Source: Natronohydrobacter sp.
GTDB taxonomy: Bacteria > Pseudomonadota > Alphaproteobacteria > Rhodobacterales > Rhodobacteraceae
NCBI GenBank assembly: GCA_030603695.1
Contig: JAUVXF010000001.1
Span: 62,001-126,000, forward strand
Length of the DNA stretch: 64,000 bases
Reading direction: 5' to 3'
The position numbers and the translations under genes were made by a program. The notes beneath the pieces were generated by a model that searched no databases, had not been told where the DNA came from, and worked only from the letters and a program-made list of their open reading frames with translations. Of this stretch, positions 38,988 to 53,613 are shown one piece after another (position 1 is the stretch's first letter; each line of letters begins with the position of its first letter).

Positions 38988-41900
38988 TCATTGCCCCCAA
39001 TCCAGCCGCGCATAAGGCCCCGGCCCAAACCGTTCCGATATCTGCGCCACCTCCAGCGCAAATACGCCATCCACCCCATCCGCATCCTGCATCGCAGCAC
39101 TATAGCGCCACTCCGGCACATCCGTTTCCACTGCGCGCAGCACCGCGCCCGCCTTGCGCACCCGCAGGCTGTAGCGCTCAAACGCCTCACCCAAAGGCAC
39201 CTCCACCGCGCCCCACGCCTCGCCCCCCAGGCGCGTGCGCCGTATCCATGCCAGATCAACATCACCCCCCGGCCGCAGTTGCGCGCGCAGATGGGCGGGC
39301 CGATAGGGCCGCAGCCCCACCCCCTCAAAGACGGCAGAGACATCGCGCTGGCTTGGGTCATTCAGCGGGCGGCTGGCCGGGCCAATGCGCCAGTTGCGCG
39401 CCACGCCCAACCCGTCCAACGGCAGCGCAAGGCTTTCCACCGCGCCATCCAGCATCACCACCACCGCACCCTCTGGCCATAGCTGGGGCATCGCCCCATC
39501 CGTGCCGCGCTGGCCGCGCAGCCGCAAGCGCAGATCATAGAGGCCCGGCGCCACCAATTCGGCCTCGGCAAACTGAAACAGCTCCCACGCGCCGCCCATG
39601 CCAATCGCGGCCATATTGGCCCCGTCCAGCAGCGCGGCAGGGGGCACGCTGTCCAACTGGCCCGAAATCATGCGCAGCCGCAGCGCCGGCCCCCTGTCCC
39701 ACAGCCCGCCCCGCGCGGCCATCAGCGGGGTTTCCGTTATACCCACCCGCGCGGGCCGCGCGATCAGCGCCTCCAGATCATAGGTATCCGGCCCGCTTTG
39801 GCGGTGCAGTGCCACCAGCCCCGGCCAGGCCCGCGCGGCCACTGCAACCCGCCCGTGATGGGCCACTTCTTCCCCGGTTATCAGCGGCAAGTCCAGAAAC
39901 ACCGCCTGCACCGGCGCAGGGGGTGCATAGGCCAGCCCCGCCCCTTGCGCGCGCGCGGTCTCGCCCCAGTCATAGACCGCATCTTCCACGCGCGTGGCCT
40001 CTACCTCGCGCGCGGCGGTCAGGGTGGCGCGGTCTATGCGCCACAGCGCGGGCGCGTGCCCTGCCAGTTCCAGCGCCACCACATCCCCCGCCCCATAATC
40101 GCGCGAAGGGGGCAGCTGAAACCGCGCCCTGTCGCGCGCCACCCGCGCCTGTGCCAACCAGCGCTCTGCGATCAACACCGCCTCGCCCTCTGTCAGCACC
40201 AAAGGCAGGTCAGAGGCAGTGGCGCGGCTTTCGCTGTGATCGGGAAAGCTGGCCTCGGCCATGCGCTGTTCAAAATGCGCGCCCTCTTCCACATAGCCCA
40301 GCCGGATACGGCCTGTCACCTCGGCCTCTGGCGCGCGGATCAGCACCAGATCACCACCCTCCATGCGCGCCAGATCATCCGCGCCCAGCCGCGCCACCGG
40401 ACTGCCCGTGCGCATCTGGAACACCAGCTTGCCGCCACGCTCTGCCACCTCTACGCCATAAGCCAGCATCAGGTTTTGCAGCAGCGCGCGCGGCGCATCG
40501 GTAGAGGCCATGGCAAAGCCCCGCACCACCCCATGCACCCCGCGCACATCCACATCCTGCACCCCGGCCTCTGTGCAAATCTCTGCAATCAGACTGTCCA
40601 GCGGCAGCGCCGTGGCGCGGCCTGTAATCCAATGCCCGCGCGCCCAATTCGCCCCATCGGCCCATAACGCCTGATTGCCGGGAAACCACGGATAAGGCCG
40701 CGCATCCCAGGCCCAGACATGGGCGCGCGCCATATCCACCATTGGCCCGCCATAAAGTTCCGATACCGGGTTTTGCGCCGGATCGGCCCAATACTCATTG
40801 ACCGCGCGAATATATTGCAGCTGAATCGCATCATCCCGCCAGCCCCGCGAAAAATGCGGCACAAAGGATTCCGAGGATTTCGGATCAAGAAACACATTCG
40901 GCTGGTTTGTGCCCCTGTCTATCGCCGGGCAGCCATATTCGGTAAACCAGAACGGCTTGGAACGCGGCACCCAGTCTGTCGGCACTGCCGCGCGCACACC
41001 GCCCACGCGCTCGTGATGGTCATTTTCCCACCAGCCGCGCAAATCCTTGTAGCGCCAGATCCAATCCTCGCGCCATTCGCTTTCATCCACAATCGGGGTG
41101 CGGCTCTGGCTGTGACGGTCGGTTTCGGTGGCGTAAAACCAATCATACCCTTCCCCGCCCGCCACATTGGCGCGCAAATAGTCCAGATCATGCACACCGC
41201 GCCAGATTTTCGCATCCCTGTGGCCTTCGCCATCGCGCCAATCCGAGAGCGGCATATAGTTATCAATTCCGATAGCATCTATCGCGTCATCGGCCCAAAG
41301 CGGATCAAGGTGAAAGAAGCGGTCGCCCTCTGGCGTGATATAGCCAAAATATTCCGACCAATCGGCAGCATAGGTCAGCTTCACATCCGGCCCCAGCAGC
41401 GCGCGCACCTCTGCCGCCAAAGCGCGCAGCGCCGCAACGGCGGGAAAGCTGTTGGCGGGGCCGCGTATCTGCGTCAGGCTGCGCATTTCAGAGCCGATGC
41501 AAAACGCATCCACCCCGCCCGCCGCCTTGCACAGCGCCGCTTGGTGCAGGATAAACCGGCGATAGCGCCATTCCTGCGGGCCGGAATAGACCACCGCACC
41601 GTTCACAATGGCAAAATCACTGGCGCTGGCCGTGCCCATGAAATCGGCCACTTCTTCGGCGGCCTCTGCAAAGCCATCGGGGCTGGCAGGCTGGCCGGGG
41701 GCCTTCGATGTGGTAATCCGCCCGCGCCACGGAAGCGCGGGTTGGCTTTGCCCCTCTGACCACGGATCAGGCAGGGCATTTCCGGGCAAGATTTCCATCA
41801 GCAGAAACGGGTAATACACCACCGCTTGCCCCCGCGCCTTCATCGCGCCAATCGCGGCAATGACAGAGGCATCGGACGGCGTGCCGCCATAAACAGGCCG

Positions 41901-42899
41901 CCCCGCCAGCCGCGCCACTTCGGGCGTGGCACTGGCCGCGCGCCCGGCCACCTGCCAGGGCTGGCCAGGGGCAAGGCGGCTGGCATGTTCCACCTTGGGT
42001 TCAATCTGGCACGGCCCCGCGCGCAGATCAGACCCAAACCATGACACAATCAACAGGCTTGATCGGCAGCGCGGCAATTCGCGGCCCAAAGCCTCCAGCG
42101 CCACATCCAGATCACTGCGCGCGCCGGGGGAATTGAGGTTCAGCGCCTGCTCTGAGCCGCCCAAACCCGCTGCCCCCTCGCGCACATAAACGGGGCTTGG
42201 CGAGAGCGCGAAATCCCCTGTTCCGGGCATCAGCGCCACGCCCTGCACATGATCGGCCATGCTTTGCGCGCGCGCACCCGAAAGCCCGCGCATCACCTCG
42301 AAACTCAGCTGCGGCACCCGGTTGCCAAAGGCGCCCAGTTCCAGATCCTCTATCACCACATAGGCAATCCCGCGATAGGCGGGCACATGGCCCACCCCCT
42401 CCACGGCCTCCATCAACGGGTCTGGCAATTGGCTGTCATCGCCCGGATAAAAGCGCAGGTTCAGATCAGAAGGGGCAATTTCCACCCCATCCGCCCAGAT
42501 ACGCCCCACCCCCAGCACAGGCCCCGCACAAAGCGCCACGGCCAGCGATACCGAATAGCTATACTCGCGCATCTGCGGGCGGCGCGCGATCTTGCCGCCG
42601 CCCCCCGATGTCGTGACAGTTTCGCGAAACTCCGACGCCCAGATCACCTGCCCGCCCAGCCGCATGCGGCCCCAGACGCGCGGCACAGGCGCGCCCTCTG
42701 CCGCGCCTGTCAGGCGCAGCCGCTCCAACCGGCCATGTTCGATCACGCCAGAGCCGCCGCCCAGCAAGCGCTGGTCAATCACCCGGCCCAGCGTGGCCCC
42801 CACAGCGCGCCCGATCACAAGGCCAGACAGGCCAAACACCGCCCCGCCAAAGCCCGATCCGACAGCCGCACCAACGGCAGACAGCACCAAGGTTGCCAT
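38988..42899 (-). CDS. g15: GTA g15: tail megatron / host-recognition protein with TIM-barrel-like domain
   Basis: 1303 residues, the largest GTA protein, forming the distal tail tip. The middle part (about 440-740) is glycoside-hydrolase-like: KLTYAADWSEYFGYITPEGD, then FWFTEYGCPAIDRGTNQPN near residue 653, as in the GTA TIM-barrel family. A phage-tail domain and a C-terminal beta-rich part follow. The Gly-rich N-terminus (LVLSAVGAAVGSGFGGAVFG) is typical. In RcGTA this protein is needed for attachment and DNA entry. It is the last structural gene of the cluster. Confidence 0.95.
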   Translation of the reverse strand: MATLVLSAVGAAVGSGFGGAVFGLSGLVIGRAVGATLGRVIDQRLLGGGSGVIEHGRLERLRLTGAAEGAPVPRVWGRMRLGGQVIWASEFRETVTTSGGGGKIARRPQMREYSYSVSLAVALCAGPVLGVGRIWADGVEIAPSDLNLRFYPGDDSQLPDPLMEAVEGVGHVPAYRGIAYVVIEDLELGAFGNRVPQLSFEVMRGLSGARAQSMADHVQGVALMPGTGDFALSPSPVYVREGAAGLGGSEQALNLNSPGARSDLDVALEALGRELPRCRSSLLIVSWFGSDLRAGPCQIEPKVEHASRLAPGQPWQVAGRAASATPEVARLAGRPVYGGTPSDASVIAAIGAMKARGQAVVYYPFLLMEILPGNALPDPWSEGQSQPALPWRGRITTSKAPGQPASPDGFAEAAEEVADFMGTASASDFAIVNGAVVYSGPQEWRYRRFILHQAALCKAAGGVDAFCIGSEMRSLTQIRGPANSFPAVAALRALAAEVRALLGPDVKLTYAADWSEYFGYITPEGDRFFHLDPLWADDAIDAIGIDNYMPLSDWRDGEGHRDAKIWRGVHDLDYLRANVAGGEGYDWFYATETDRHSQSRTPIVDESEWREDWIWRYKDLRGWWENDHHERVGGVRAAVPTDWVPRSKPFWFTEYGCPAIDRGTNQPNVFLDPKSSESFVPHFSRGWRDDAIQLQYIRAVNEYWADPAQNPVSELYGGPMVDMARAHVWAWDARPYPWFPGNQALWADGANWARGHWITGRATALPLDSLIAEICTEAGVQDVDVRGVHGVVRGFAMASTDAPRALLQNLMLAYGVEVAERGGKLVFQMRTGSPVARLGADDLARMEGGDLVLIRAPEAEVTGRIRLGYVEEGAHFEQRMAEASFPDHSESRATASDLPLVLTEGEAVLIAERWLAQARVARDRARFQLPPSRDYGAGDVVALELAGHAPALWRIDRATLTAAREVEATRVEDAVYDWGETARAQGAGLAYAPPAPVQAVFLDLPLITGEEVAHHGRVAVAARAWPGLVALHRQSGPDTYDLEALIARPARVGITETPLMAARGGLWDRGPALRLRMISGQLDSVPPAALLDGANMAAIGMGGAWELFQFAEAELVAPGLYDLRLRLRGQRGTDGAMPQLWPEGAVVVMLDGAVESLALPLDGLGVARNWRIGPASRPLNDPSQRDVSAVFEGVGLRPYRPAHLRAQLRPGGDVDLAWIRRTRLGGEAWGAVEVPLGEAFERYSLRVRKAGAVLRAVETDVPEWRYSAAMQDADGVDGVFALEVAQISERFGPGPYARLDWGQ

Positions 42900-42916
42900 A
42901 TCTCACTCCATTCAGA

Positions 42917-43342
42917 TCAGGTATCGGGAAAGGCAAAGCGCGCCACAATGCGCCGCGCCCAAGGGTGTGACAGGGGCGCTTCCACCACGCCCGCACGCGG
43001 GCAGGCATGGATAAACCCCCGCCCCCCCGCGCAGTGAATGCCCAGATGCTTGGCCAACGCACCCGCTTGCAGGCGAAACAGCAAAACCTGCCCATCGGCG
43101 GGCTGCTCTGCCGGGCGCAGATGCTGCGCCAGTGCCAGCCACAGCCGTTCTTGCCCGCCGCTTTCGGCCCAACTGGGGGAATAATGGGGCAGCGCCTCTG
43201 GCTCTTGGCCCATGCGCGCGCGCCATATGCCCCGGATCAGGCCCAGACAATCCGCGCCCGCCCCTTGCAGGCTGGCGCGGTGGTGATAGGGCGTGCCAAT
43301 CCAGCCGCGCGCAAGGCGCACAATCTCTGCGCCGCTGCTCAT
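42917..43342 (-). CDS. g14: GTA g14: NlpC/P60 peptidase of the tail tip
   Basis: 141 residues. The catalytic cysteine is Cys32 in GAGADCLGLIRGIW and the histidine is near residue 98 in AKHLGIHCAGG, as in NlpC/P60 cell-wall peptidases. It should open peptidoglycan during DNA delivery. The start overlaps the g13 stop by four bases. Length and position match RcGTA g14. Confidence 0.93.
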   Translation of the reverse strand: MSSGAEIVRLARGWIGTPYHHRASLQGAGADCLGLIRGIWRARMGQEPEALPHYSPSWAESGGQERLWLALAQHLRPAEQPADGQVLLFRLQAGALAKHLGIHCAGGRGFIHACPRAGVVEAPLSHPWARRIVARFAFPDT

Positions 43343-44214
43343 CGCCGCCGCTGGCCCCCGTCATTGGGCTGGCCCGCGCGCGGATAGGCGCTTTGCCAAT
43401 CTTCGCCCGGAATATGCGGAAAGCCCTGAAAATTCAGCAGATTGTCAAATTTCAGGCGGCAGGTTGCGGCCTGTTTGTCGCAGCCCGCTTCCAGCCGCAC
43501 CAGATCACCCACCGCCACAGGCGCGCGCAGCCCGTCCCAAAGCGCGATGTCCCGCGCGCCCGCTTGCGCTCTGTCCTCGCGGATATGGCCCAACAGCCCC
43601 GCCGCCGCGCCAGACAGCACCCGCAACCGGCCCTGCGCAAACCAGCCCGGCGCGACAGTGTCTATGGGTGCAAAGGTAAAGCGCTGGCCATCGGCCACCG
43701 CCTGCACCGGGACTTGGGCAAAATACCCCTCCTGCGCCAGATCAAACCCGCAAGCACGATCCCCCAGCACCGCCCCGCAGGCCGCATGATAGACCCGCCC
43801 GCCTTGCTGGTTCAGCCCCTCGGACAGGCCGCGCAATTCGGCCTTGAACGCGCCACCCGCGCGCGTAATCTCGCCCAGAGAGCCGCGAAAGATCAGCGCG
43901 CGTTGCTCCGGCGCGGCCCAGTTCACCTGCCAGATCCGCAGCCCCGCGCCATCATAGCGCCCCGCCATGATATCGCCCTCGCGCAGCCCGGCGGCACTTA
44001 GCGCGCCCACCGCTTCAGAATTATCCACCGCAAGCCCCGTCACCTGTTCCAGCGCGCGCGCGCTCAGCCCGGTTCCGGCGTGAAAGGTGATCCCCTCAAA
44101 CTGCAAATCCCTGTCATGATCGGTAAAACCCAGCGTCACGCCATCGGCGCGCGTCACAGCCCAGGCCCGCGCGATGGTGGTGGCCCCGCTGGCCAGATGC
44201 GCGGCCAAACTCAT
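43339..44214 (-). CDS. g13: GTA g13: baseplate hub protein (DUF2163)
   Basis: 291 residues. Opening SLAAHLASGATTIARAW and VTLGFTDHDRDLQFEGITF are DUF2163 features. Four cysteines sit as two pairs, AACGAVLGDRACGF (near 143-153) and EAGCDKQAATCRLKF (near 248-256), as in hub proteins that hold an iron-sulfur cluster (RcGTA hub, phage gpL-like). ATGA overlap with g12. Confidence 0.93.
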   Translation of the reverse strand: MSLAAHLASGATTIARAWAVTRADGVTLGFTDHDRDLQFEGITFHAGTGLSARALEQVTGLAVDNSEAVGALSAAGLREGDIMAGRYDGAGLRIWQVNWAAPEQRALIFRGSLGEITRAGGAFKAELRGLSEGLNQQGGRVYHAACGAVLGDRACGFDLAQEGYFAQVPVQAVADGQRFTFAPIDTVAPGWFAQGRLRVLSGAAAGLLGHIREDRAQAGARDIALWDGLRAPVAVGDLVRLEAGCDKQAATCRLKFDNLLNFQGFPHIPGEDWQSAYPRAGQPNDGGQRRR

Positions 44215-44843
44215 AGCCGCACCTCCAGCACCGGCACTTTGGGCACTTCGCCTGCCGAAAAACTGGCAACGGATACCTGAATCAGATCAGTATCAAACCG
44301 CACCGGCACATCAAATTCAAACCCGGCCCGAATTTCGGCCCCGGCATCGGGGGGGCGGGCAAAGGTGATCAGGCCCGTAGCGCTATCCACCGCATAATCG
44401 CGCCCCAAGGCTAAGGCATCGCGCCCCACCGCCGCCAGAACAGAGCCTTCCACCGGCTTGGCAATCGCGCGCTGATAGGCTTGCGCGCCAGAGGCATAGG
44501 TCTTGGCCAGCGCGAAGATGCGGGTTTCGCCATCGCCATAGCCCAAAAGCTGGTCAAACGCCGTAATCGTATGCGAGGCAGGCGCAGAGCGGTAATCGCC
44601 CCAATCCTTCCAACGAAACCCGTGCAACATGCCCGCGCGGGCCTCGAAAAACGCGATCAGGGTTTCCAGATCATCCAGCGCGCGCAAGCCCGTTCCCGCA
44701 TCATAGCGCCTACGCGAATTGGCCCAGGGGGTGTTGCGCTCCTCATGGCCATTGGCCAGTTCCACTATCTCTGTGCGCCGCTCTGGCCCGCCCAAAGCCC
44801 CAAAGCTCAGGCCAGCAGGAAAGCGGATTTCGTGAAATGCCAT
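44211..44843 (-). CDS. g12: GTA g12: distal tail protein (DUF2460)
   Basis: 210 residues. MAFHEIRFPAGLSFGALGGP and the following RRTEIVELANGHEERNTPWA are the DUF2460 signature; EARAGMLHGFRWKDWGDYRS is the second conserved block. It forms the ring at the tail end in RcGTA. The ATG (complement of 44841-44843) is preferred; the longer ORF runs into g11. Confidence 0.93.
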   Translation of the reverse strand: MAFHEIRFPAGLSFGALGGPERRTEIVELANGHEERNTPWANSRRRYDAGTGLRALDDLETLIAFFEARAGMLHGFRWKDWGDYRSAPASHTITAFDQLLGYGDGETRIFALAKTYASGAQAYQRAIAKPVEGSVLAAVGRDALALGRDYAVDSATGLITFARPPDAGAEIRAGFEFDVPVRFDTDLIQVSVASFSAGEVPKVPVLEVRL

Positions 44844-44861
44844 CTGGGATTCCCTTCTCAG

Positions 44862-44916
44862 CGGTTTCGCTGGCCTGTGGCCAGTTGCTTCAACGGTTTC
44901 GCTGGCCTGTGGCCAG
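44862..44916. repeat. 23-bp direct repeat at the g11/g12 junction
   Basis: CGGTTTCGCTGGCCTGTGGC plus CAG occurs at 44862-44884 and again at 44894-44916, nine bases apart. The second copy encodes the last residues of g11 (LATGQRN on the minus strand); the first lies in the gap before g12. It looks like a local duplication of the g11 3' end. Confidence 0.9.
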
Positions 44917-45546
44917 CAGGCGCGACATCTGCGCCGCGATCTGGGTTTGTGAGCGCGCAAACCCCGCCACATCGGGGGTAGAGATGTTGAACGTCACCGC
45001 CAGCGCCCGCCCGCCCCCGCCCGCGCGCCCCCCAAGCCGCCCATCCGCACCGCGCGACAGCGGCAAAATCGCCTCTGGCCCGGCCTCTCCCATCAGGCCG
45101 GTCGTGCCGCCGCGCATGGGAAAGGCCGTTGCCTGTGAAATTACACCCCCCTTGGCAAAGGGCATAATGCGCCCCGCGCTAAACGCGCCGCCCGCGCCAA
45201 AGGGCATCACTGCACCCATCGCGCCCGCCACACCCTGCGCCAAAGCCGCGCCAAAGGCGTTTTGCACCGGGCGCATGGCGGTGTTGTAAACACTTGCCAC
45301 CATGCTTTGCGCCACACCGCGCAGCGCATCTTGCAGGCGCATCCCGTCAAAGATAACGCCATCAAAGGCCCGCCGCAGCCCGGTGGAAAACCCGCGCGAC
45401 AGCCCCTCCACCTCGCGCCCGGTGAATACCAGATTACGCCCCAGCCCGGCCAATTCGCCATCAAAGGCCGCCACCAGCCCGGCGGTTTGCCCCAGCCGCG
45501 ATTCCAGCGCGGCGATTTGGCCTTCCAGATCAGTCAGCGTTGTCAT
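44890..45546 (-). CDS. g11: GTA g11: tail tape measure protein (short)
   Basis: 218 residues, short as expected for the small GTA tail. A helical N-terminal half (LEGQIAALESRLGQTAGLVA) is followed by the conserved FDGVIFDGMRLQDALRGVAQ and a Gly/Ala-rich C-terminal half with FGAGGAFSAGRIMPFAKGG and EAGPEAILPL, typical of tape-measure ends. The tail length fits an RcGTA-sized particle. Confidence 0.92.
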   Translation of the reverse strand: MTTLTDLEGQIAALESRLGQTAGLVAAFDGELAGLGRNLVFTGREVEGLSRGFSTGLRRAFDGVIFDGMRLQDALRGVAQSMVASVYNTAMRPVQNAFGAALAQGVAGAMGAVMPFGAGGAFSAGRIMPFAKGGVISQATAFPMRGGTTGLMGEAGPEAILPLSRGADGRLGGRAGGGGRALAVTFNISTPDVAGFARSQTQIAAQMSRLLATGQRNR

Positions 45547-45547
45547 C

Positions 45548-45748
45548 TTACCTGCCTTTCACTGCATCAGGGTAGCGCGCGGCCAGTTCTTCCAGCCTTG
45601 CGCGCGTCAGGGGGGCGGGCTGGCCTTCCAGCCCGGCCATGATCATCAACTCCATCGGTGTCAGCGCCCAGAAATCGCGCGGGTGCAGGCGCAAATCGCG
45701 CAGGCCAAGGCGCATCAGCGCGGGCCAGTCAAAGCGCGGATGGGTCAT
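45548..45748 (-). CDS. g10.1: GTA g10.1: tail assembly chaperone (rcc01693 family)
   Basis: 66 residues. FDWPALMRLGLRDLRLHPRD and FWALTPMELMIMAG are the phage tail-chaperone (TAC) pattern. It overlaps g10 by four bases and ends one base before g11. In many phages the second chaperone part is made by a frameshift; here it is a separate overlapping ORF, as in RcGTA. Confidence 0.9.
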   Translation of the reverse strand: MTHPRFDWPALMRLGLRDLRLHPRDFWALTPMELMIMAGLEGQPAPLTRARLEELAARYPDAVKGR

Positions 45749-46059
45749 GCAGGCGGGGTAAAGGCGCGCGCCAAAAGCGCGGCTGCCGCCTGTGCAGCGC
45801 CCTGAATACCGCCTGCAATCTCGGCATGGGCCAGATCATCGGCCCCGCCCTGCCAGCCGCCCCCGCGCAACCCCGCCACCAGCAGCGCCAGCACATCGCG
45901 CGCCCGGAACTGCCCGCCTTCAAACCGCTCCACCAGCGCCAAGAGGGTATCTTCGCCCAAACCGGCCTCCAGTTCGGCCAGCGCGCCCAAAGACAGGCGC
46001 AGCACATGCGCTTGCCCGTCAATCACCAGCCGCACATCACCTGTATAAGGATTGGCCAT
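45745..46059 (-). CDS. g10: GTA g10: tail assembly chaperone (GTA_gp10 family)
   Basis: 104 residues. MANPYTGDVRLVIDGQAHVL and LRLSLGALAELEAGLGEDTL match the GTA_gp10 family; the rest is a helical Ala-rich tail. With g10.1 it should coat the tape measure during tail assembly. Position between the tail-tube and tape-measure genes is diagnostic. Confidence 0.92.
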   Translation of the reverse strand: MANPYTGDVRLVIDGQAHVLRLSLGALAELEAGLGEDTLLALVERFEGGQFRARDVLALLVAGLRGGGWQGGADDLAHAEIAGGIQGAAQAAAALLARAFTPPA

Positions 46060-46074
46060 GCCCGCGCCCCCGCC

Positions 46075-46488
46075 TTAATCCGCCACAAAGGTCAGCGCGC
46101 CCGCAGAGGCCAGCGACAGCTCGAACGTGGCCTCGCCATTATGGCTGCCCGCATAATCCAGCCCCGTGATCTGAAACGCCCCGGACACCACCCCGAAATC
46201 GGGAATGATGATCTGGAAATCCGGCGTTTCACCATTGAAGAAAATGGCGCGCGCGCGTTCATCCGTGCCCGCATCCCGAAACACGCCAGACCCCGAAATC
46301 GCCGCAGATTTCACCCCCGCACCGCGCAGCAATTCGCGCCACCCCCCTTGCGAGGACAGCGATGTTACATCCACCGTTTCCGCGTTGAAACTGACACGCG
46401 TGGCCCGCAGGCCCGCGACAGTTTCAAACTGCCCGTCCCCTGTCATATCCACTTTTATCAGCAGGTCTTTGCCATTCTGTGCACCCAT
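46075..46488 (-). CDS. g9: GTA g9: major tail (tube) protein, TP901-1 family
   Basis: 137 residues, beta-rich: NGKDLLIKVDMTGDGQFETV, then AGLRATRVSFNAETVDVTSL and ISGSGVFRDAGTDERA are the family blocks. It forms the stacked rings of the tail tube. It follows g8 by 24 bp. Confidence 0.94.
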   Translation of the reverse strand: MGAQNGKDLLIKVDMTGDGQFETVAGLRATRVSFNAETVDVTSLSSQGGWRELLRGAGVKSAAISGSGVFRDAGTDERARAIFFNGETPDFQIIIPDFGVVSGAFQITGLDYAGSHNGEATFELSLASAGALTFVAD

Positions 46489-46512
46489 CGGGACACCTCC
46501 TAAAATGTGAAA

Positions 46513-46923
46513 TCACGCATCCTCAACCAGCGCCCGAAAGCGCAGGTCTATGCGGCGGGTCTGGTCGCCCTCTATGCGGCGGGCCTCTGCGCGTTCAAAC
46601 CACAGGCCCACCAGCCGCCCGCGCGTCAGCACCAGTGCGGGGGCGTCCAGCACCTCGCACAGGCGCGCGGCAATCTCTTTGGCGCTCAGAAACCCCGTGG
46701 CATTGGTCACAACACTGATCGTCAGGCTATGTTCCGCGCCACGGCTGGTCACGTCAGACCGCTCGCGCACCTGTTCGGCACCCAGCAAGACATAGCTGGC
46801 AGGCGGCGTGGCAGGCGGGATCGCATCATAAATCGCGCCGCCCACCAGCGCTTGCAGGGCCGCATCGGCCTGCAAATGCGCGTAAATCGCGGTTTGCAAC
46901 GCGGGGGCAAGGGTATAGCTCAT
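46513..46923 (-). CDS. g8: GTA g8: tail terminator/completion protein (DUF3168)
   Basis: 136 residues. LAPALQTAIYAHLQADAALQ, then GGAIYDAIPPATPPASYVLL and ERSDVTSRGAEHSLTISVVT match DUF3168 tail-completion proteins. The ATG (complement of 46921-46923) overlaps the g7 stop; the far longer in-frame ORF reads back through g7 and is rejected. Confidence 0.92.
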   Translation of the reverse strand: MSYTLAPALQTAIYAHLQADAALQALVGGAIYDAIPPATPPASYVLLGAEQVRERSDVTSRGAEHSLTISVVTNATGFLSAKEIAARLCEVLDAPALVLTRGRLVGLWFERAEARRIEGDQTRRIDLRFRALVEDA

Positions 46924-47261
46924 GCGGGCTGCTCCTCTGTGGCGGTGCAAATCAGATAACGGCCCTGAACATCGGCCTCGGCCACGGCCAGAATGCGGAA
47001 AATCCGCACCCCTTCGCGCAAGCGCTGCTCTGGCCGGGGGCGGCGCGGGCTGCCCACGGGGGCCGCGCGCAGCATGATCCGCAAGCGCACCTCGCCCGAG
47101 GGGCCAAGCGCTGCAAACCGCTCGCGCCCAGCCCCGGCCCGGATTTCCGCCCAGACAGTGCCCAGAGTTTCCCATGTCGTGACAAAGCCGCCCGCCCCAT
47201 CTGGCGCAATAACCGGGGTTTCCAGCACCAAGGCGCGGCTCAGATTGGGTGCGCCGCTCAT
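46920..47261 (-). CDS. g7: GTA g7: head closure / head-tail adaptor protein
   Basis: 113 residues. The segments GAGGFVTTWETLGTVWAEIR and ERFAALGPSGEVRLRIMLR are the head-tail joining (SPP1 gp16-like) pattern. It closes the capsid portal after packaging. ATGA overlaps with g6 and g8. Confidence 0.93.
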   Translation of the reverse strand: MSGAPNLSRALVLETPVIAPDGAGGFVTTWETLGTVWAEIRAGAGRERFAALGPSGEVRLRIMLRAAPVGSPRRPRPEQRLREGVRIFRILAVAEADVQGRYLICTATEEQPA

Positions 47262-47848
47262 GCCCGGCCCCCAAGGCGCATATCGCGCCAGCGCTCCAGC
47301 AGCGCGCGAATGCCGAAACTGGCCTCATCATCGCCGCCCGCATCCGCGCGCCCCTCGTAATATTGCGCGGCCAGCAACAGCACGGCTTGGCGCAGATCGG
47401 CGGGGATATCGTCCCACACCACCCCAAAGCCTGCGCGAAAGGCAATCACAACGGCCCCCCCGGTGGGGATTTGCGGCAAGGCCACCCCCGCAGCTTCCAG
47501 CCTTGGGCGCATGCTATCGGCATCCAGCCTGTAGCGCGCAGGCGCCACCGGCATTTCCACCCCCTGCGCCGAAACCAGTGTCACCCCCTGCACCGCCAGC
47601 ACCGGGGCCAGTGGCAGGCGTTCTGCGTAGCCATCGCGCCAGCGCGTCAGCCGCAAGGTATAATCGCGCGCAAACAAGGCCCGCGCCACCCGCCCCTCAA
47701 CACTGGCAATGGCCGCGCGCAAATATTGCTCCAACAGCCCGTCTTGCGTGCTGTCATCGGCAAAGCCGCTCGACAGGCGCAAATGATCGCGCAACGCAGC
47801 CAAAGGCAGCGCGGCACCGGGAATGGGGCTTGTCTCTGTCAGTTGCAT
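47258..47848 (-). CDS. g6: GTA g6: head-tail adaptor (gp6-like connector)
   Basis: 196 residues. The opening PLAALRDHLRLSSGFADDST and the next helix EQYLRAAIASVEGRVARALF are typical of gp6-like connectors (HK97 gp6 / adaptor). A C-terminal helix DDIPADLRQAVLLLAAQYYE completes it. The ATG (complement of 47846-47848) starts MQLTETSPIPG. A 74-bp gap separates it from g5. Confidence 0.92.
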   Translation of the reverse strand: MQLTETSPIPGAALPLAALRDHLRLSSGFADDSTQDGLLEQYLRAAIASVEGRVARALFARDYTLRLTRWRDGYAERLPLAPVLAVQGVTLVSAQGVEMPVAPARYRLDADSMRPRLEAAGVALPQIPTGGAVVIAFRAGFGVVWDDIPADLRQAVLLLAAQYYEGRADAGGDDEASFGIRALLERWRDMRLGGRA

Positions 47849-47922
47849 GAAGGGCCTCTTGCTGCAAGGAATTCGCCTGAAAACCCCCTGCCCCCGCATC
47901 AAAAAGGGGGCAGGGGATCAGA

Positions 47923-49155
47923 TCAGTTCTGGCCAAATTTCAACAGCTTGATCGCCTTGAAATCGGAAACATCCCCGCCCACGCGCTTGGTGGCATAAAA
48001 CAGCACATGCGGCTTGGCGCTGAACGGATCGCGCAGCACACGCAGATCAGGGCGTTCGGCAATGGTATAGCCCGCCGCGAAATCGCCAAAGGCGATGGCA
48101 TAGCTATTGGGCGCGATATCGGGCATATCCTCTGCCACCAGCACCGGATAGCCCATCAGCCGCGCAGGCTCTCCCGCTGCCAGCCCGTCCGACCACAGGA
48201 AACGGCCATCTGCATCCTTCATCTTACGCACCGCGCCTGCGGTCTTGGAATTCATCACAAACACCGCATTGGCCCGGTAAGTGGCCCCCAGCGCATAAAC
48301 CAGATCCACAATCGCATCGGATGCATTGACAGGGGCGAAATCGCCCTCGGCCCCCGTGGCGATATAGCCCAGATTGCCCCATTCCCACAGCGCATCATCC
48401 ACCGTGTCATGGGTCAGAAACCCGCGCGGCTTGTCCAGCCCATCGCCAGAGATGAAGGCCGCAGCCTCGGCGCGCGCAAATTTCGCGGCAATGCGGCTTG
48501 CAAGCCAGCCTTCAATATCAAACGCGCTGTCATCCAGCAGGCGCTGGCTGGCCTTGGGCATGGCGGCCAGTTCATGCAGCCGAATGGAAATACGGTCTAT
48601 CTTGGGCGTATCAGATTCCGCCAGGGCCGCAGTTTCGCTGGCCCAACCTGTGGAAACATCGGTATGATCCACCAACACATCAAATGTGCCCGCTTCCACC
48701 GTCACCACCGACGCAATCGCCCGGATAGAGGCCGTGGCATGCAGAACCCCCCGAATGGCAGAGGCCGTTTCAGGATCAACCAGATACCCGCCATCAGCGG
48801 CAACCTGGGTATTCAGGCCCTTGGCCTCCAACTCCAGCCCGCGCAGGGGGGTATCATCACCCCGGCGCAAATAGGCGTCAAAGGCTTTATGATGCAGCGA
48901 TGCACCACCATCGGCCTGGCTTAGAACGGGGCGTGCGGGGGAAAGGGCAGTCTTGCGATCCAGCATTGTCAGTCGCTCTTCCTGTTGTGAAAGTTTCCGG
49001 GTGATCTCGGCGTGGTAATCGCCGAATTCCTGCGCAAAGCCCTGAAGGGCGGTTTTCAATTCCGTCTCCGGGGCAGTGGTGGGCAAGGCAGGGGGCACAG
49101 AAGCGGGCAAATCCCCTCCGGCCCCCGCCTGCACCTGTGGCGCGGGGTTGGTCAT
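47923..49155 (-). CDS. g5: GTA g5: major capsid protein, HK97 fold
   Basis: 410 residues. A helical scaffolding-like delta region (about 30-85, ETELKTALQGFAQEFGDYHA) precedes the shell domain with DGGYLVDPETASAIRGVL, KASQRLLDDSAFDIEGWLAS and FGDFAAGYTIAERPDLRVLR. The prohead protease g4 should remove the delta region. The ATG (complement of 49153-49155) starts MTNPAPQVQAG. An 89-bp gap separates it from g4. Confidence 0.95.
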   Translation of the reverse strand: MTNPAPQVQAGAGGDLPASVPPALPTTAPETELKTALQGFAQEFGDYHAEITRKLSQQEERLTMLDRKTALSPARPVLSQADGGASLHHKAFDAYLRRGDDTPLRGLELEAKGLNTQVAADGGYLVDPETASAIRGVLHATASIRAIASVVTVEAGTFDVLVDHTDVSTGWASETAALAESDTPKIDRISIRLHELAAMPKASQRLLDDSAFDIEGWLASRIAAKFARAEAAAFISGDGLDKPRGFLTHDTVDDALWEWGNLGYIATGAEGDFAPVNASDAIVDLVYALGATYRANAVFVMNSKTAGAVRKMKDADGRFLWSDGLAAGEPARLMGYPVLVAEDMPDIAPNSYAIAFGDFAAGYTIAERPDLRVLRDPFSAKPHVLFYATKRVGGDVSDFKAIKLLKFGQN

Positions 49156-49244
49156 GGCTCTTGTCTCCAAAGAATGGTCAGTTGTGATCAGGGGCAGAAT
49201 ATACGGGCCTGCCCAAGATCAGGTGAAAGCAGCGCGCGCTGCCC

Positions 49245-49775
49245 TTACAGCCGCGCAACATCGGCGCGCGCCGCGCGCATCTGCGCACGCAACCCCGCCA
49301 GCGCGTCCAGCGTGCTGGCCTTGGCACTCAGCCGCGCCTCTGCCTGCATGGGAAATGTCACAAGGCTCACTTCCCACAATTCCAGCTCCAACAGGCGCCG
49401 CCCGCCCCCGGTCACGGCCTCTGCGCGCACTGTGCGATAGCCGATAGACAGGCCATCCACCGCGCCTGCTTCCAACAGCGCGCGCGCCTCGCGCGCCCGC
49501 GCGACATCCTCCAACAAGCGGCCCCTCACAAACAGGCCGCGCATATCCTCAAACACCTCATCCCATACGCCAATCGGCTGGGCCGGGTCATGCTGCCACA
49601 GCATACGCACCTTCTCGCCCCGCCGGCTCAACGCCTTCAGCGAGACCGCATAGGCCCCCGGCACCACCATATCCCCGCCCTTGTCACGCAGGCCGAAAAC
49701 AGAGGCATAGCCCTCAATCCGCTGGCCCTGCACAAGGCTCACACCCGGTTCAGGTTGCAAGAACTTGTATTCCAT
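49245..49775 (-). CDS. g4: GTA g4: prohead protease, HK97 family
   Basis: 176 residues. YASVFGLRDKGGDMVVPGAY, then MLWQHDPAQPIGVWDEVFED (catalytic His) and DGLSIGYRT (catalytic Ser) are the S78/HK97 prohead protease motifs. It matures the capsid protein. The ATG (complement of 49773-49775) starts MEYKFLQPEPG; MSEGAMEYK 15 bases upstream is an alternative. Confidence 0.94.
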   Translation of the reverse strand: MEYKFLQPEPGVSLVQGQRIEGYASVFGLRDKGGDMVVPGAYAVSLKALSRRGEKVRMLWQHDPAQPIGVWDEVFEDMRGLFVRGRLLEDVARAREARALLEAGAVDGLSIGYRTVRAEAVTGGGRRLLELELWEVSLVTFPMQAEARLSAKASTLDALAGLRAQMRAARADVARL

Positions 49776-49786
49776 CGCTCCCTCAC

Positions 49787-50032
49787 TCATCCAAAGGCCG
49801 CGACCAGTGCCAGCGCCCCATGCACCAACACCCCGGCCGCCACAGCGTAAACAGCCATCCACAACCGCTTTTCCAGCCGCTCCACGGCCTGCTCCAAGCG
49901 CGCCATGCGAAATTCCAACGCCTCTTTGCGCACCTCGAACACACGCTCTTGCGCATCAATCCGCGCTTGGGCAGCGTCAAAACTGTCATAGAGAAAGCGC
50001 GATCCCCCCACCGCGCGGCGCGCCGCGCTCAT
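49787..50032 (-). CDS. g3.5: GTA g3.5: head formation protein (rcc01685 family)
   Basis: 81 residues: a coiled coil (RIDAQERVFEVRKEALEFRM then ARLEQAVERLEKR) followed by one membrane-like helix (LWMAVYAVAAGVLVHGALAL). Size, order and features match the small ORF between portal and protease in RcGTA. It overlaps the portal gene by ATGA. Confidence 0.88.
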   Translation of the reverse strand: MSAARRAVGGSRFLYDSFDAAQARIDAQERVFEVRKEALEFRMARLEQAVERLEKRLWMAVYAVAAGVLVHGALALVAAFG

Positions 50033-51252
50033 GCGCCCTCCACCAGCGGCGGCAGGCCCAAAAGCACGCGCTTTTCCGCATCACTCAGAAAACCGGCCTC
50101 ACCCACGCGGCGCCATTGCTGCTCGCGCTCCACCGCCAGCGCGGGCACCTGGTCTAGATCGGGCTTCAACGTCACCTCACCGGGAATGAAACCTGACAGC
50201 CAATGCGCCACCGCCGCACTCACCCGCTGCGCCAAAGGCAACACTGTCAGGCGGTAAAAGGCGCGATTGGCCTCCTGGTAATTGGCATAAGTGGCATCAC
50301 CGGGAATGCCCAGCAACATGGGCGGAATGCCAAAGGCAATCGCAATCTCGCGCGCCGCCGCCTCCTTGGTTTTCTGAAACTCCATATCCGAGGGGGAAAA
50401 GCCCATGGGCTTCCAATCCAGCCCCCCCTCCAGCAACATCGGGCGGCCCGCATTGCGCGCCCCCTGATGATGGGCCTCCATCTCGGCTTGCAACCGCTCA
50501 AATTGCTCGGCGCTCAAACTGCCCTGCCCGTCCGGGCCTTTATAGACAATCGCCCCAGACGGGCGCGCGGCATTGTCCAACAGCGCGCGCGACCAGTTGG
50601 ACGCGGCATTATGCACCTCCACGGCACGGCGCGCCGCCTCAAAGGGCGACAGGCCATAATGGTCATCCAGCGGGTGAAAACTGCGGATATGGCAAATCGG
50701 CACAATGCCATCGCGCAGATGAAAGCGGTGGCTCGCACTGCCCACAGTGTAATCATAGGCCACAGGCCAGCCATCGCCGCCGGGCACAACCCGCATCCGG
50801 TCAGAGCGCAACACATGCAATTCCTGCACCACGCCCGCCCCGTCGCGCACCGCTTCCAGATAGGCATTGCCCGATAACACCAGCTGCGCATACAGCGCCT
50901 CGAACAATTCCGCCCGGCCCTGCGCCGGGTTGGGGCGCGTGATCAGATCGAGCACCGGATGCGTTTCATAGCGGCGCGCGCAATCCTGCACCACCAGCGG
51001 CAAAGCGCCCGCCGCCTCGGAAATCAGCCGCACCGCCCGAAACCCGATCGGATTGCCCAAAAACCCGGCCCGCACCGGCGAAAGCCCATCGCGCGCGCCA
51101 AGGCCCGCCACAGCCACCTGCCCAATCCCCGCAGCAACGCGCCCCCCCTTCACCACACCGGCCGTCAATGGCCCCACGGCAGAGGCTTTCGCCTCCCGCC
51201 CCAGATCGGCCCCTGTCTCCATGGGCTTTGCCTTGCGCAGAAAATCAAACAT
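50029..51252 (-). CDS. g3: GTA g3: portal protein, HK97 family
   Basis: 407 residues. LVLSGNAYLEAVRDGAGVV, ICHIRSFHPLDDHYGLSPFE and EIAIAFGIPPMLLGIPGDAT are portal hallmarks. The portal ring admits DNA into the head. The ATG (complement of 51250-51252) starts MFDFLRKAKPMETG. A 147-bp gap with a hairpin element separates it from g2, while most genes downstream are tightly packed. Confidence 0.95.
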   Translation of the reverse strand: MFDFLRKAKPMETGADLGREAKASAVGPLTAGVVKGGRVAAGIGQVAVAGLGARDGLSPVRAGFLGNPIGFRAVRLISEAAGALPLVVQDCARRYETHPVLDLITRPNPAQGRAELFEALYAQLVLSGNAYLEAVRDGAGVVQELHVLRSDRMRVVPGGDGWPVAYDYTVGSASHRFHLRDGIVPICHIRSFHPLDDHYGLSPFEAARRAVEVHNAASNWSRALLDNAARPSGAIVYKGPDGQGSLSAEQFERLQAEMEAHHQGARNAGRPMLLEGGLDWKPMGFSPSDMEFQKTKEAAAREIAIAFGIPPMLLGIPGDATYANYQEANRAFYRLTVLPLAQRVSAAVAHWLSGFIPGEVTLKPDLDQVPALAVEREQQWRRVGEAGFLSDAEKRVLLGLPPLVEGA

Positions 51253-51280
51253 ATCCGGCCTTTCTCCATCACGGCCCCCT

Positions 51281-51335
51281 TCATCTTGGCTCAAATATCC
51301 TCGGGGGGGTGTGGGGGGGCAGACAGCCCCCCCGC
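51281..51335. repeat. REP-like hairpin element between GTA g2 and g3
   Basis: TTCATCTTGGCTCAAATATC followed by CTCGGGGGGG, then GGGGGGGC (51313-51320) pairing with GCCCCCCC (51326-51333) over AGACA. The 'cttggctcaaatatcctcgggg' wording is one I associate with repeated intergenic elements in Roseobacter genomes; only this copy is in the window. It sits inside the GTA operon. Confidence 0.55.
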
Positions 51336-51399
51336 CTGCTCAGGGATGCGCGCATCCGCCTTGGTTACACCCTAGCCCAGCCCGGTTTCCGCCCTGTTA

Positions 51400-52701
51400 T
51401 CACAGCGTACGCAGGGCGGGGCGCGCATAGCTCGCGGCAGGGCCAAGGATCAGCTCCTGCACCGCCCAGACCAGCGCATCCACCCGGTCGGGGCTGCCTG
51501 CGCCGCGCCAGCCCTGCGCGGTCATCTGCATCATCTGGTCTTCCAGCGCGCCCAGCCGCGCAGCATGGAAAATCCGGCCCTGCTCGTATAGCGCGGCCAC
51601 AGGTTCGGCGCGGGCGGCCTTGCCCCGGCTGGCATGCAGCGCGCGAAAGGGCACCAGCGGGTCAATCTGGCGCAGCACCTCCCCCACCAGATTGCCGCCC
51701 TGGTTCACCTCCGCCACAATCCGCTCGGCCCCGTGGCGCTGCGCCGCCGCAAGCGCGGCCTCCGCCCAGGCAGAAGGCGAGGGGGCGCGCAGGCTGGCAT
51801 CTTCCAGCACATAGGCCCGCCAGGTGCTTGGCGGGCCATCCGTCACCGCCCCCACAACCACAATCCCGCAAAGATCGGATCGCACTGTGGCGCTGACAGA
51901 CGGATCAACCGCCACCACCACCCGCGACAGCGCAGGCACGGGGCCAGCCAGGCGCGCGCGCTCCAACAGTGCCAGCGGCCAAAGCGTGCCCTCGGCATCT
52001 TCCAATAACACCCCGTCCAGTTCCTGCCGCTCCAGGCTTGTGCCCCGGTAGCGCGCGCGGATTTCCTCCAGAAAGGACGGGGCCAGCCAGGCGCGATTGG
52101 CCTCTGTCGCGGCATGGGTCATCACGGTGGAGGGGCTGCGCAGGATGGCTTTCAGCGTGGCTTGCCCGCGCGGCGTGGTTGTCACCAATTGGCGCGGATG
52201 ATCGCCCAGCCGCAGCGCGAATTGCAACATATCCCAGGTTTCCTCTGCCTTGGGCCATTTCGCCAGCTCGTCACACCAGGCCGCATCAAATTGCGGCCCG
52301 CGCAGCGCTTCGGGGTCAGAGGCAGAGAAACATTGCGCCACAGCCCCATTGGGCCAGACAAGGCGGCGGCGCGTGGCCTCCCATTGCGGCAGGCGGTCTG
52401 GGGGGGCACAGGCCAGAATGCCGCTATCGCCAAAGACCATCACATCGCGCGCCTGATCATAGGTTTCCGCCACCAGCGCCACACGCCGCGCGCGGCCCAT
52501 ATCCAAAGGGCGCGCGCCTTCCACCTGCGCGCGCACCCATTCTGCGCCGGCGCGCGTCTTGCCAGCCCCGCGCCCCCCCAGACAGACCCATGTGCGCCAG
52601 TCGCCAGCGGGGGGCAGTTGGTGCGGCGCGGCCCAGAATTCAAACAGCCAGGGCAGCGCGGCAATCGCGCCATCACTCAGGCTGTCCAGAAACTCCGCCA
52701 C
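51400..52701 (-). CDS. g2: GTA g2: terminase large subunit (DNA packaging)
   Basis: About 433 residues from a GTG. The ATPase has WVCLGGRGAGKTRAGAEWVR (Walker A) and FDAAWCDELAKWPKAEETWD (Walker B); the nuclease part has VVAVDPSVSA and ERIVAEVNQGGNLVGEVL. It pumps random host DNA into the head. Start choice: an ATG at 52824 would overlap g1 by 152 bp, so the GTG at 52701 (VAEFLDSLSDGAIAALPWLF), giving a 29-bp overlap, is preferred but not certain. Confidence 0.92.
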   Translation of the reverse strand: MAEFLDSLSDGAIAALPWLFEFWAAPHQLPPAGDWRTWVCLGGRGAGKTRAGAEWVRAQVEGARPLDMGRARRVALVAETYDQARDVMVFGDSGILACAPPDRLPQWEATRRRLVWPNGAVAQCFSASDPEALRGPQFDAAWCDELAKWPKAEETWDMLQFALRLGDHPRQLVTTTPRGQATLKAILRSPSTVMTHAATEANRAWLAPSFLEEIRARYRGTSLERQELDGVLLEDAEGTLWPLALLERARLAGPVPALSRVVVAVDPSVSATVRSDLCGIVVVGAVTDGPPSTWRAYVLEDASLRAPSPSAWAEAALAAAQRHGAERIVAEVNQGGNLVGEVLRQIDPLVPFRALHASRGKAARAEPVAALYEQGRIFHAARLGALEDQMMQMTAQGWRGAGSPDRVDALVWAVQELILGPAASYARPALRTL

Positions 52702-53017
52702 CGCCTGCGGCGGCGCGCAAGCGAGCAAGTCTGCCGGCGATTTCGGCGCGGGCTGCGTCAAGATCAAGGGTTGCGCCTGCGGCCTGCTCTCCGCCTTTAA
52801 GTTTCTGTATCTGGGCACGTTCATGATATGCAATCTCCAGGGCTTTGCGCAGACTGCGGAATTCTTCGGTCAGTTCCTTTCCGCAGGCCGGTGTAAGAGG
52901 GTCACAAGCCGCAAGCAGGCCGGTCAGGCGCGAAATGCTCAGGGCCAATAGCTGCTCGGAATAAGACACCATGTTTTCCGGTGTCGTCCCGCCGCGCGGG
53001 GGTTTTTCTATGCTCAT
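52673..53017 (-). CDS. g1: GTA g1: terminase small subunit-like protein
   Basis: 114 residues, helical, starting MSIEKPPRGGTTPENMVSYS; EQLLALSISRLTGLLAACDP and LTEEFRSLRKALEIAYHERA follow. The place before g2 and the overlap with it match RcGTA g1, which acts as small terminase. The roughly 260 bp upstream (53018-53279) must hold the cluster promoter; I see no clear -35/-10 pair there. Confidence 0.85.
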   Translation of the reverse strand: MSIEKPPRGGTTPENMVSYSEQLLALSISRLTGLLAACDPLTPACGKELTEEFRSLRKALEIAYHERAQIQKLKGGEQAAGATLDLDAARAEIAGRLARLRAAAGGGGVSGQPE

Positions 53018-53279
53018 AGGGTGCTGCCTGTTCCCATAACCGCCCGCGCGCGGGCTGGCGCATAAAGCGCCGTCGCGGGCCAGCACAGACTAGCGCCATT
53101 TCCTGAAAGAAAGCGTGCGACAGCGCGCGCTGTGCAGTGGGATGGGGCGCATGTGTTCCGCGCCTTGCAGCACAGGCCCTGACGCTGGGAAGGTGCGCCA
53201 AACGCATGGCACAGGTCGGGCATGGCCGGCGCGGCCCCGAATCCCCCCATCCCGTTCAAACCGGCTTTGGGTATGGCGG

Positions 53280-53477
53280 CTACCTCTGGCGTCCATCCAT
53301 ATCTGGCGGTTGGGCTTTTCCCCCCTCCACAGCCGAATTGGCAATCTCCAGATGCGCCAGTTCCAGCGCGGTTTCCAGATGGTCAGCCAGCATGGGCAAG
53401 CCATGCCCGGCGGCATAGGCGCGCAAATCTGCCAAAGTTTCGATCAACCACAGATGCGACACTGAAACATGCTCCAT
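53280..53477 (-). CDS. Small conserved Rhodobacterales protein upstream of the GTA cluster
   Basis: 65 residues: MEHVSVSHLWLIETLADLRA, then YAAGHGLPMLADHLETALEL and a short charged tail. The pattern looks like small helical proteins I recall from this order, of unknown function. It lies between ccrA and GTA g1, 262 bp before g1 on the same strand. Confidence 0.6.
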   Translation of the reverse strand: MEHVSVSHLWLIETLADLRAYAAGHGLPMLADHLETALELAHLEIANSAVEGGKAQPPDMDGRQR

Positions 53478-53548
53478 CAGGACAGGAAATAAGCCCGCCA
53501 GATAGCCAGAACTGTAAGATGACCGGGTTTACAAAAGACTTATGGCCC

Positions 53549-53586
53549 CAAAAGAAAACGCCGCGCGGCAGCGGGGCCGCGCGGCG
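53549..53586 (-). terminator. Rho-independent terminator after ccrA
   Basis: CGCCGCGCGGC (53559-53569) pairs perfectly with GCCGCGCGGCG (53576-53586). On the minus strand the stem is followed by TTTTCTTTT, 28 bases after the ccrA stop. It isolates ccrA from the small ORF and GTA genes. Confidence 0.85.
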
Positions 53587-53613
53587 GGGTTTTGGTGCAA
53601 GTCTGGCAACAGA

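Follow-up and report, generated by a model that had tools for sequence, protein, structure and literature searches.

A complete RcGTA-type gene transfer agent cluster with a variant control region in a Natronohydrobacter genome

How might a domesticated virus be switched on when the promoter and leader used by most of its relatives are missing? The question is raised by a gene transfer agent (GTA) cluster on the minus strand of a 64,000-nucleotide stretch of contig JAUVXF010000001.1 from Natronohydrobacter sp. (the window), which resembles RcGTA, the GTA of Rhodobacter capsulatus. We consider it probable that this is a complete and selectively maintained RcGTA-type GTA of the Roseinatronobacter group, which has been relocated, has lost its ancestral leader, and has come under multi-promoter control through a 51-bp box, with GafA as the likely activator. 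The control region is the unusual part of the locus, a point not covered by an earlier first-pass annotation of this DNA, and represents a variant for which no description was found in the available portions of the literature searched.

Seventeen genes (g1-g15 together with g3.5 and g10.1) occupy 38988-53017 without internal stops, bounded by the g15 stop at 38988 and by the g1 ATG at 53017, a start set by conservation with relatives. Sixteen of the 17 products could be assigned using Pfam and NCBIfam; g1 is the sole product without a family, and retrieved no match in Pfam, PHROG or NCBIfam. Mechanically set starts are likely overlong for g1, g2, g3, g4, g5, g6 and g12. The genes are:

52673..53017, minus strand: g1, small terminase (TerS), 114 aa; ATG at 53017 conserved, sequence common to clade relatives
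51400..52728, minus strand: g2, large terminase (TerL); PF03237 4e-31, PF17289 6e-18; Walker A GGRGAGKT; start uncertain (52728-52833)
50029..51252, minus strand: g3, portal; PF04860 2e-92; TIGR01537
49787..50032, minus strand: g3.5, GTA head formation protein; NF048001 RCAP_rcc01685 family, 90.1 bits (cut-off 50)
49245..49790, minus strand: g4, prohead protease; PF04586 2e-29; a start at 49790 gives a 4-bp overlap with g3.5
47923..49155, minus strand: g5, major capsid protein; PF05065 2e-91; Rcc01687 chain 6tb9_C5, E 2e-178
47258..47848, minus strand: g6, head-tail connector; TIGR02215 1e-41
46920..47261, minus strand: g7, head completion; PF05521 5e-24
46513..46923, minus strand: g8, tail completion; PF11367 3e-29
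46075..46488, minus strand: g9, tail tube; PF06199 3e-47
45745..46059, minus strand: g10; PF11836 Phage_TAC_11, GTA-gp10, 7e-30
45548..45748, minus strand: g10.1; PF09550 3e-22
44890..45546, minus strand: g11, tape measure, 218 aa; NF058675 RcGTA_tape equivalog, 307.7 bits (cut-off 220)
44211..44843, minus strand: g12, distal tail protein; TIGR02217 Rcc01695 family, 268.6 bits (cut-off 136.65)
43339..44214, minus strand: g13, baseplate hub; TIGR02218, 311.6 bits (cut-off 80.5)
42917..43342, minus strand: g14, NlpC/P60 peptidase; TIGR02219, 149.7 bits (cut-off 81.9); PF00877 just under cut-off
38988..42899, minus strand: g15, megatron baseplate protein, 1303 aa; NF048004 GTA_megatron, 1761 bits (cut-off 800)

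Models specific to GTAs exceeded their cut-offs for the megatron (NF048004), the tape measure (NF058675) and head formation (NF048001), and residues 1-1302 of the megatron align with the solved RcGTA chain 6tba_8A. Matched genes are collinear and on a single strand in 80 of 80 named Rhodobacteraceae loci; all 17 genes were found in 34 of these loci and, when g1 and g3.5 are set aside, the remaining 15 in 59, with many loci cut by contig ends. The first-pass annotation had proposed a complete, ordered, RcGTA-like cluster of 17 genes at 38988..53017, which is borne out by family models, synteny and exact ends. It was also right that the genes share one strand and that none is broken, but its description of mostly 4-bp overlaps is overstated: with mechanical starts these occur at 6 of the 16 junctions, and placing the g4 start at 49790 raises the count to 7. 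Judged by their sequences, the particle genes add one more ordinary example to the known RcGTA-type systems.

GTA carriage is common in the group: of 61 family genomes, 46 gave g5-like matches, and 28 of the 37 genomes of the genus gave g2-like ones. The nearest named g5 belongs to a Roseinatronobacter sp. metagenome-assembled genome (95% identity), and no paper pairing the genus name Roseinatronobacter with "gene transfer agent" was found in the literature searched. A codon comparison with seven close relatives gave ratios of nonsynonymous to synonymous substitution (dN/dS, Nei-Gojobori) of 0.17-0.21 over shared genes, which indicates purifying selection; dS is 0.8-1.1 for six of the relatives and 0.22 against L042, which holds six genes. 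Single-gene ratios range from 0.03 to 0.46 across the seven comparisons, with one gene saturated once. Ratios near 1 for g2 and g5, which the first-pass annotation had named as telling against its proposal, did not appear: the values are 0.12-0.21 for g2 (five relatives) and 0.10-0.14 for g5 (seven relatives).

These values bear on whether the locus might be a prophage, or a GTA that is defective or in decay. We regard either as highly improbable, given the unbroken frames, the low ratio of each gene, the lack of any tRNA within the 64-kb window, the GTA-specific megatron, tape and head-formation families, and the full accessory set described below, even though broken GTA capsids exist in the family (a g5 copy with one stop at G008:C75:1661-2860, and a g5 fragment at G036:C23:124896-125120). 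Separately, the complete genome CP023454.1 (L073) looks like it carries a decayed GTA: tblastn found no g3, g3.5, g4 or g7-g10.1 and matched several other genes partially, and a canonical leader of the kind defined below is present with a score of 35.5.

The regulator, head-spike and lysis genes, which the first-pass annotation had reported absent from the window, with missing regulatory or lysis loci counted as contrary evidence, were searched for and found elsewhere in the source genome (2.95 Mb in 40 contigs, 99.97% complete), ghsB by position. GafA is a single 365-aa protein with DUF6456, and the gafA promoter carries a CtrA-type site, TTAAC-N6-GTAAC, as described for R. capsulatus (PMC6363796). 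The lysis pair consists of a holin-associated muramidase (endolysin) and a holin with three transmembrane segments, encoded by overlapping genes. GhsA shares 41% identity with its R. capsulatus SP108 counterpart and scores 97.3 bits against NF048002 (cut-off 28). The ghsB candidate, directly 3' of ghsA, was assigned by position and is 34% identical over 106 aa to the gene at that place in Roseibaca domitiana. The fibre gene was assigned from DUF2793 alone, and TspA, with 50% identity over the whole protein, was found by protein search. A place for tspA beside lysS was ruled out in this genome and in that of R. domitiana; the protein search located tspA elsewhere. The head-fibre N-terminus, used as a DNA pattern over five genomes, gave mostly noise, and one match (L134) led to R. 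capsulatus SP108 ghsA/ghsB. The proposal that the cell can probably make GTA heads and tails is supported by the family models, synteny, low dN/dS and these accessory genes, and the virus-derived set probably packages the cell's own DNA for its neighbours.

Three further observations were made at the accessory loci. A third small gene follows ghsA-ghsB in this genome (L163:6002-6532, minus strand) and in R. domitiana (L164:6859-7263, plus strand), with 35% identity over 108 aa, and is perhaps a new part of the head spike. A small divergent gene adjoining gafA (L038:6803-7177, minus strand), with a homologue at the same place in L036 (58% over 92 aa), may by position alone be the counterpart of rcc01866. 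R. domitiana also has a second megatron gene (L130:5232-9743, minus strand; 1338 aa, 45% identical to g15 of the window), near which lie an NlpC/P60-like gene, recognised by eye, and a DUF2793 frame; this locus is probably a GTA-related prophage.

What controls such clusters in other Rhodobacteraceae was approached through a motif search of the DNA upstream of g1 in named relatives, with the near-duplicates L074, L075, L081, L084 and L086 left out of training. The motif found at width 14 had a log-likelihood of 289, versus 80 in one shuffled set; it was rejected as a binding site and is the 3' half of a terminator. The canonical layout opens with a promoter, TTGACttTgCGnACGGTCnnnnGTAtAc, and a conserved initial transcribed region, CAaGCTgGAAGAAGTGGGcAAGCGGC; a terminator-like hairpin lies in the 65 nt that follow, ahead of g1. 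We define the canonical promoter here as TTGAC-N17-TAtA plus the conserved leader upstream of g1; the spacer between -35 and -10 is also conserved. A promoter and leader scoring at least 28 bits were found in 53 of 67 loci with g2, by a matrix trained on nearly all 67 scored loci, the window included (L075 and L081 were left out). Other loci without a strong signal are L091, L098, L108 and L113 (-27 to -2), with weak scores in L087, L093 and L118 (17-23), while L095 and L100 have too little upstream DNA for a call. Scanned over the accessory loci, the matrix was rejected as a regulon motif.

A hairpin with a T-run is present in 44 of 52 distinct canonical leaders (the others being L062, L066, L084, L092, L099, L107, L116 and L121), versus 143 of 1040 mononucleotide shuffles. 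In an alignment of 36 leaders chosen from these 52, changes on both sides maintain the hairpin at 7 of 11 pairs, and pairing holds in 89.2% of cells versus 82.4% in shuffles, with none of 500 shuffles as high and slid partners worse. The parts of the R. capsulatus work available describe a GafA-bound fragment with a -10 element and a start site 76-125 bp upstream of g1 (PMC6363796), and the R. capsulatus hairpin (L071) therefore lies between the start site and g1. We thus read the canonical leader as an antitermination-like layout, in which the conserved hairpin suggests that an antiterminator would be needed. No description of a leader terminator for Rhodobacterales GTAs was found in the available portions of the literature searched, and the words "terminator" and "hairpin" are absent from the main texts of the two GafA papers. 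In canonical leaders a second hairpin, CUCGUGC...GCAUGAG (L071:6147-6167), was seen by eye and in folds between the terminator and g1, close to the gene; it seems to be partly retained in the genus of the window.

The window has no canonical promoter: its best canonical-leader score is -21.5. Five named loci of its clade score -35 to -26, and 25 genus leaders score at most -9.4, none of them canonical; these counts are not independent, since L043, L044, L045, L047 and L048 come from the same genomes as the genus loci L185, L195, L197, L186 and L207. The genus set excludes L187, whose contig ends inside g1. No sigma-70 promoter was found in a simple scan of 52900-54000, which returned four terminator-like sites versus 1.3 expected, only one of them on the minus strand, after a dehydrogenase gene. 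A laxer terminator test flagged 4 of the 25 genus leaders, this one included, which is near the shuffle rate. The leader and the flanks of the cluster are:

53018..53086, minus strand: g1 leader 3' of the box; hairpins, no clear T-run terminator, and none listed on the minus strand by the terminator scan
53559..53586, minus strand: strong terminator-like hairpin between the dehydrogenase gene and the g1 box
53614..54906, minus strand: zinc-type alcohol dehydrogenase; PF00107/PF08240
55163..56995, minus strand: citrate-type transporter; PF03600 5e-74; 80% and 78% identical neighbours upstream in L043 and L045
36712..38583, minus strand: ABC-F type ATPase, downstream of g15; PF00005 and PF16326 above cut-offs; also downstream in L043

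With regard to phage replication or integration genes beside the cluster, the neighbours that could be named are these three; nine further open reading frames of the window were scanned, of which four have no family and gave no match in PADLOC or NCBIfam. Of 80 loci, 51 have the pair fabF-mltG ahead of the cluster, and among the three clade loci with much upstream DNA (L043, L045 and L047) none does; in the window, L043 and L045 the transporter is found there instead. A FastTree phylogeny of five concatenated GTA proteins (midpoint root; 67 of the 80 loci and the window, with L073 left out by choice) places the window, L043, L045 and L046 with L049 and L050 with support of 1.0, nested among canonical-leader lineages. 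Because of this nesting, relocation and leader loss look derived, and the cluster appears to have moved from an ancestral place behind fabF-mltG.

In place of the canonical promoter, leaders of the genus share a box, CAGCGCGCGCT-N29-TAgtCT, without a -35 element. Within the 51-bp box, 29 bp separate the first 11 bases of the palindrome CAGCGCGCGCTG from a putative -10 element. We scored it with a matrix trained on 23 genus leaders, with the leader of this genome and the nearest one left out, and with R2, a profile of 22 chosen sites, none from this genome or R. capsulatus. Three putative promoters with boxes lie in the cluster:

53082..53132, minus strand: GTA box before g1; CAGCGCGCGCT at 53132-53122, N29, TAGTCT at 53092-53087; rank 1; R2 E 2.4e-6
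51364..51414, minus strand: GTA box between g2 and g3; rank 6; R2 E 9.7e-5; conserved in the genus
49191..49241, minus strand: GTA box, entirely intergenic, between g4 and g5; rank 4; R2 E 3.8e-4

The matrix was scanned over both strands of nine stretches of this genome (355,286 positions), most of them picked for GTA loci and not at random, and the six best sites lie before g1 (35.3), the fibre gene (24.7) and the lysis genes (22.3), in the g4-g5 gap (21.5), before tspA (19.3) and in the g2-g3 gap (19.1). The next site scores 14.0, and the maximum of the reversed matrix is 16.1. Among genus leaders the g1 box scores at least 21.6 in 22 of 25, 23 of the 25 having trained the matrix. At the g3 position 24 of 27 genus loci reach a score of 14.5 or more; the other three are L201, which falls below the listing threshold, and L206 and L208, whose sequence stops within g2. 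At E up to 3.8e-4, R2 recovers the boxes before g1, the fibre gene, g3 and g5 of this genome and the one before R. capsulatus tspA, and over 72 named loci its best 15 matches all fall in the clade or in L049, with five of the 15 in the training set, one of these through the duplicate L186. By the matrix, boxes also precede R. capsulatus tspA (24.3), the R. domitiana fibre gene (22.7), ghsA (19.3) and tspA (18.0), and four of five scanned genus gafA loci (14.9-18.2). No description of such a box for Rhodobacterales GTAs was found in the available portions of the literature searched, although it may be partly known from the putative GafA sites of Figure S7 in PMC9638019.

Could the boxes instead be coincidental GC-rich matches in an ordinary RcGTA cluster under single-promoter control, whose g1 leader has merely diverged? 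The half-sites are GC-rich palindromes in a window of 63% GC, and the first half-site alone matches many places. Nevertheless, we consider coincidence improbable. The 29-bp spacing is fixed, and the true spacing scores best (28.2) among 26 spacings; the box is conserved in the g1 leaders of the genus; and the control scans given above argue against chance. Upstream of g5 it scores 14.7-28.4 in all eight loci L042-L049, versus a best of 9.1 among 65 scored outside loci. The six best matches of a genome-wide search, moreover, are all at GTA loci.

A number of observations weigh against control by the box. The genome-wide search used R1, a sequence-only profile of 30 chosen sites; it puts the same six sites first (E up to 0.022, the next being 0.12, with the next three matches inside long open frames), but these six sites were also part of its training set, and 150 of 1935 candidates were scored. 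With other spacings the matrix still reaches scattered scores as high as 21.4. R2 misses the lysis and tspA boxes of this genome, the box of its gafA is weak, and that of its ghsA is not convincing. The g3 box overlaps, in its CTGCGTACGCT half, the final codons and the stop of TerL, so that only the second half is free of coding constraint, and the position of this box is not exclusive to the clade, because L091, L096, L108 and L118, outside it, score 14.4-18.4 in their g2-g3 gaps. A g5 box is missing from L050 (2.7), the sister of L049; the genus leaders L189 and L195 have no clear g1 box, and that of L198 is weak. The ghsA of R. capsulatus DSM 1710 (NF048002) has a weak box-like site (L165:6023-6062, minus strand; R1 E 0.33 in the genome and 0.023 in a small search) that is missed by both the matrix and R2. 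Finally, the GafA-bound fragment published for R. capsulatus tspA takes in the -10 half of the box without the palindrome when the start is set at L173:9955, and contains neither half when it is set at 10021.

Loci of two further kinds deserve mention beside the boxes. In Rhabdonatronobacter sediminivivens (L049) the cluster starts at g5, with a box at 9908-9958 before it (23.5), and tblastn found no g1-g4 in the 10 kb upstream, which suggests that the GTA is split or has shed its packaging genes. L091, L108 and L118 have long g2-g3 gaps (1447, 784 and 801 bp) with the box-like scores given above and a weak or no canonical leader, and perhaps represent another route to the same rewiring.

If the box is a promoter element, the protein that reads it must be considered. 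The available parts of published work report GafA to be dimeric (PMC9638019), to bind the promoters of RcGTA, gafA, the lysis genes and tspA, and to contact the omega subunit of RNA polymerase (PMC6363796, PMC9638019, PMC13420450). A different regulator could read the box while GafA acts elsewhere, be it IHF, CtrA together with a partner, or some unknown activator linked to quorum or stress; the tspA fragment without the palindrome under either start (PMC13420450) and the CtrA half-sites reported near late loci (PMC9638019), as far as those sources are available, point that way. We think this unlikely, though less so than coincidence, as the genes with boxes match the GafA-dependent set of R. 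capsulatus (structural, lysis, fibre, spike and tspA; PMC9638019, PMC13420450, in the parts available), a palindrome fits a dimer, and the box is unlike the CtrA site, which stands separately before gafA. The core of the box palindrome, GCGnrCGcT, resembles the canonical spacer, GCGnACGgT, and because of this likeness one protein may read both, at different positions.

The reading that we favour, a maintained GTA driven from several boxes with GafA as activator, would work as follows. The products of g1-g15 would build a small-headed tailed particle, whose working, by homology, is likely that of RcGTA, and genes outside the window would supply the GafA activator, lysis, head spikes, fibre and tailspike. 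The cluster would have left its ancestral place behind fabF-mltG and lost the ancestral promoter and leader, so that several promoters (before g1, g3 and g5), sharing the 51-bp box with the accessory loci, would now drive it. A dimeric activator, for which GafA is the best candidate, would bind the palindrome or the spacer and recruit RNA polymerase to all boxes, and these GafA-dependent, sigma-70-type promoters would fire together in one coordinated burst ending in lysis. More tentatively, and with somewhat less than even confidence, we propose that a leader terminator overridden by GafA is the ancestral lock, from which the Roseinatronobacter clade would have escaped when three boxes of the accessory regulon replaced the antiterminated master promoter after the move.

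The Caulobacter GTA study, in the parts available, holds that the binding elements of GafA are unmapped at nucleotide resolution and that GafA perhaps has an unrecognised antitermination activity (PMC11150451). For both questions the present analysis supplies exact DNA elements, namely the canonical promoter and leader with its hairpin, and the 51-bp box of a clade without that leader. The contrast between the two promoter types is a natural experiment in the silencing of a domesticated virus and its later activation as a unit, and the box could be used to look for unknown GTA-linked genes.

Among known systems the closest is RcGTA (rcc01682-rcc01698 with rcc00171, rcc00555/556, rcc01079/1080, rcc01865 and rcc02623). 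The window has the same 17 genes in the same order, at 46-79% identity to strain DSM 1710 with g1 matched in part, the same kinds of accessory genes, a megatron aligned over nearly its full length, and a box that recurs before R. capsulatus tspA. It differs in its chromosomal neighbours, in lacking the canonical promoter and leader, and in its boxes before g1, g3 and g5, whereas the best box score in the R. capsulatus locus L071 is 9.1. The GTA of Caulobacter crescentus (CcGTA), controlled by GafY, GafZ and IHF, is described in the available parts of PMC11150451 as a similar multi-locus regulon activated by GafA-family proteins, with a terminator near the operon start that is passed only with a Gaf protein, GafZ acting in antitermination. 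In CcGTA, however, the Gaf protein is split and the terminator consists of three 150-bp repeats after the first gene, whereas the hairpin of the canonical Rhodobacteraceae stands before g1 and the leader of the window has no clear T-run hairpin. Antitermination of the lambda Q or AlpA type, as far as that source describes it (PMC11150451), resembles what canonical leaders seem to offer in their promoter, conserved initial transcribed region and terminator-like hairpin, but this antitermination-like layout is a feature of the relatives and not of the window.

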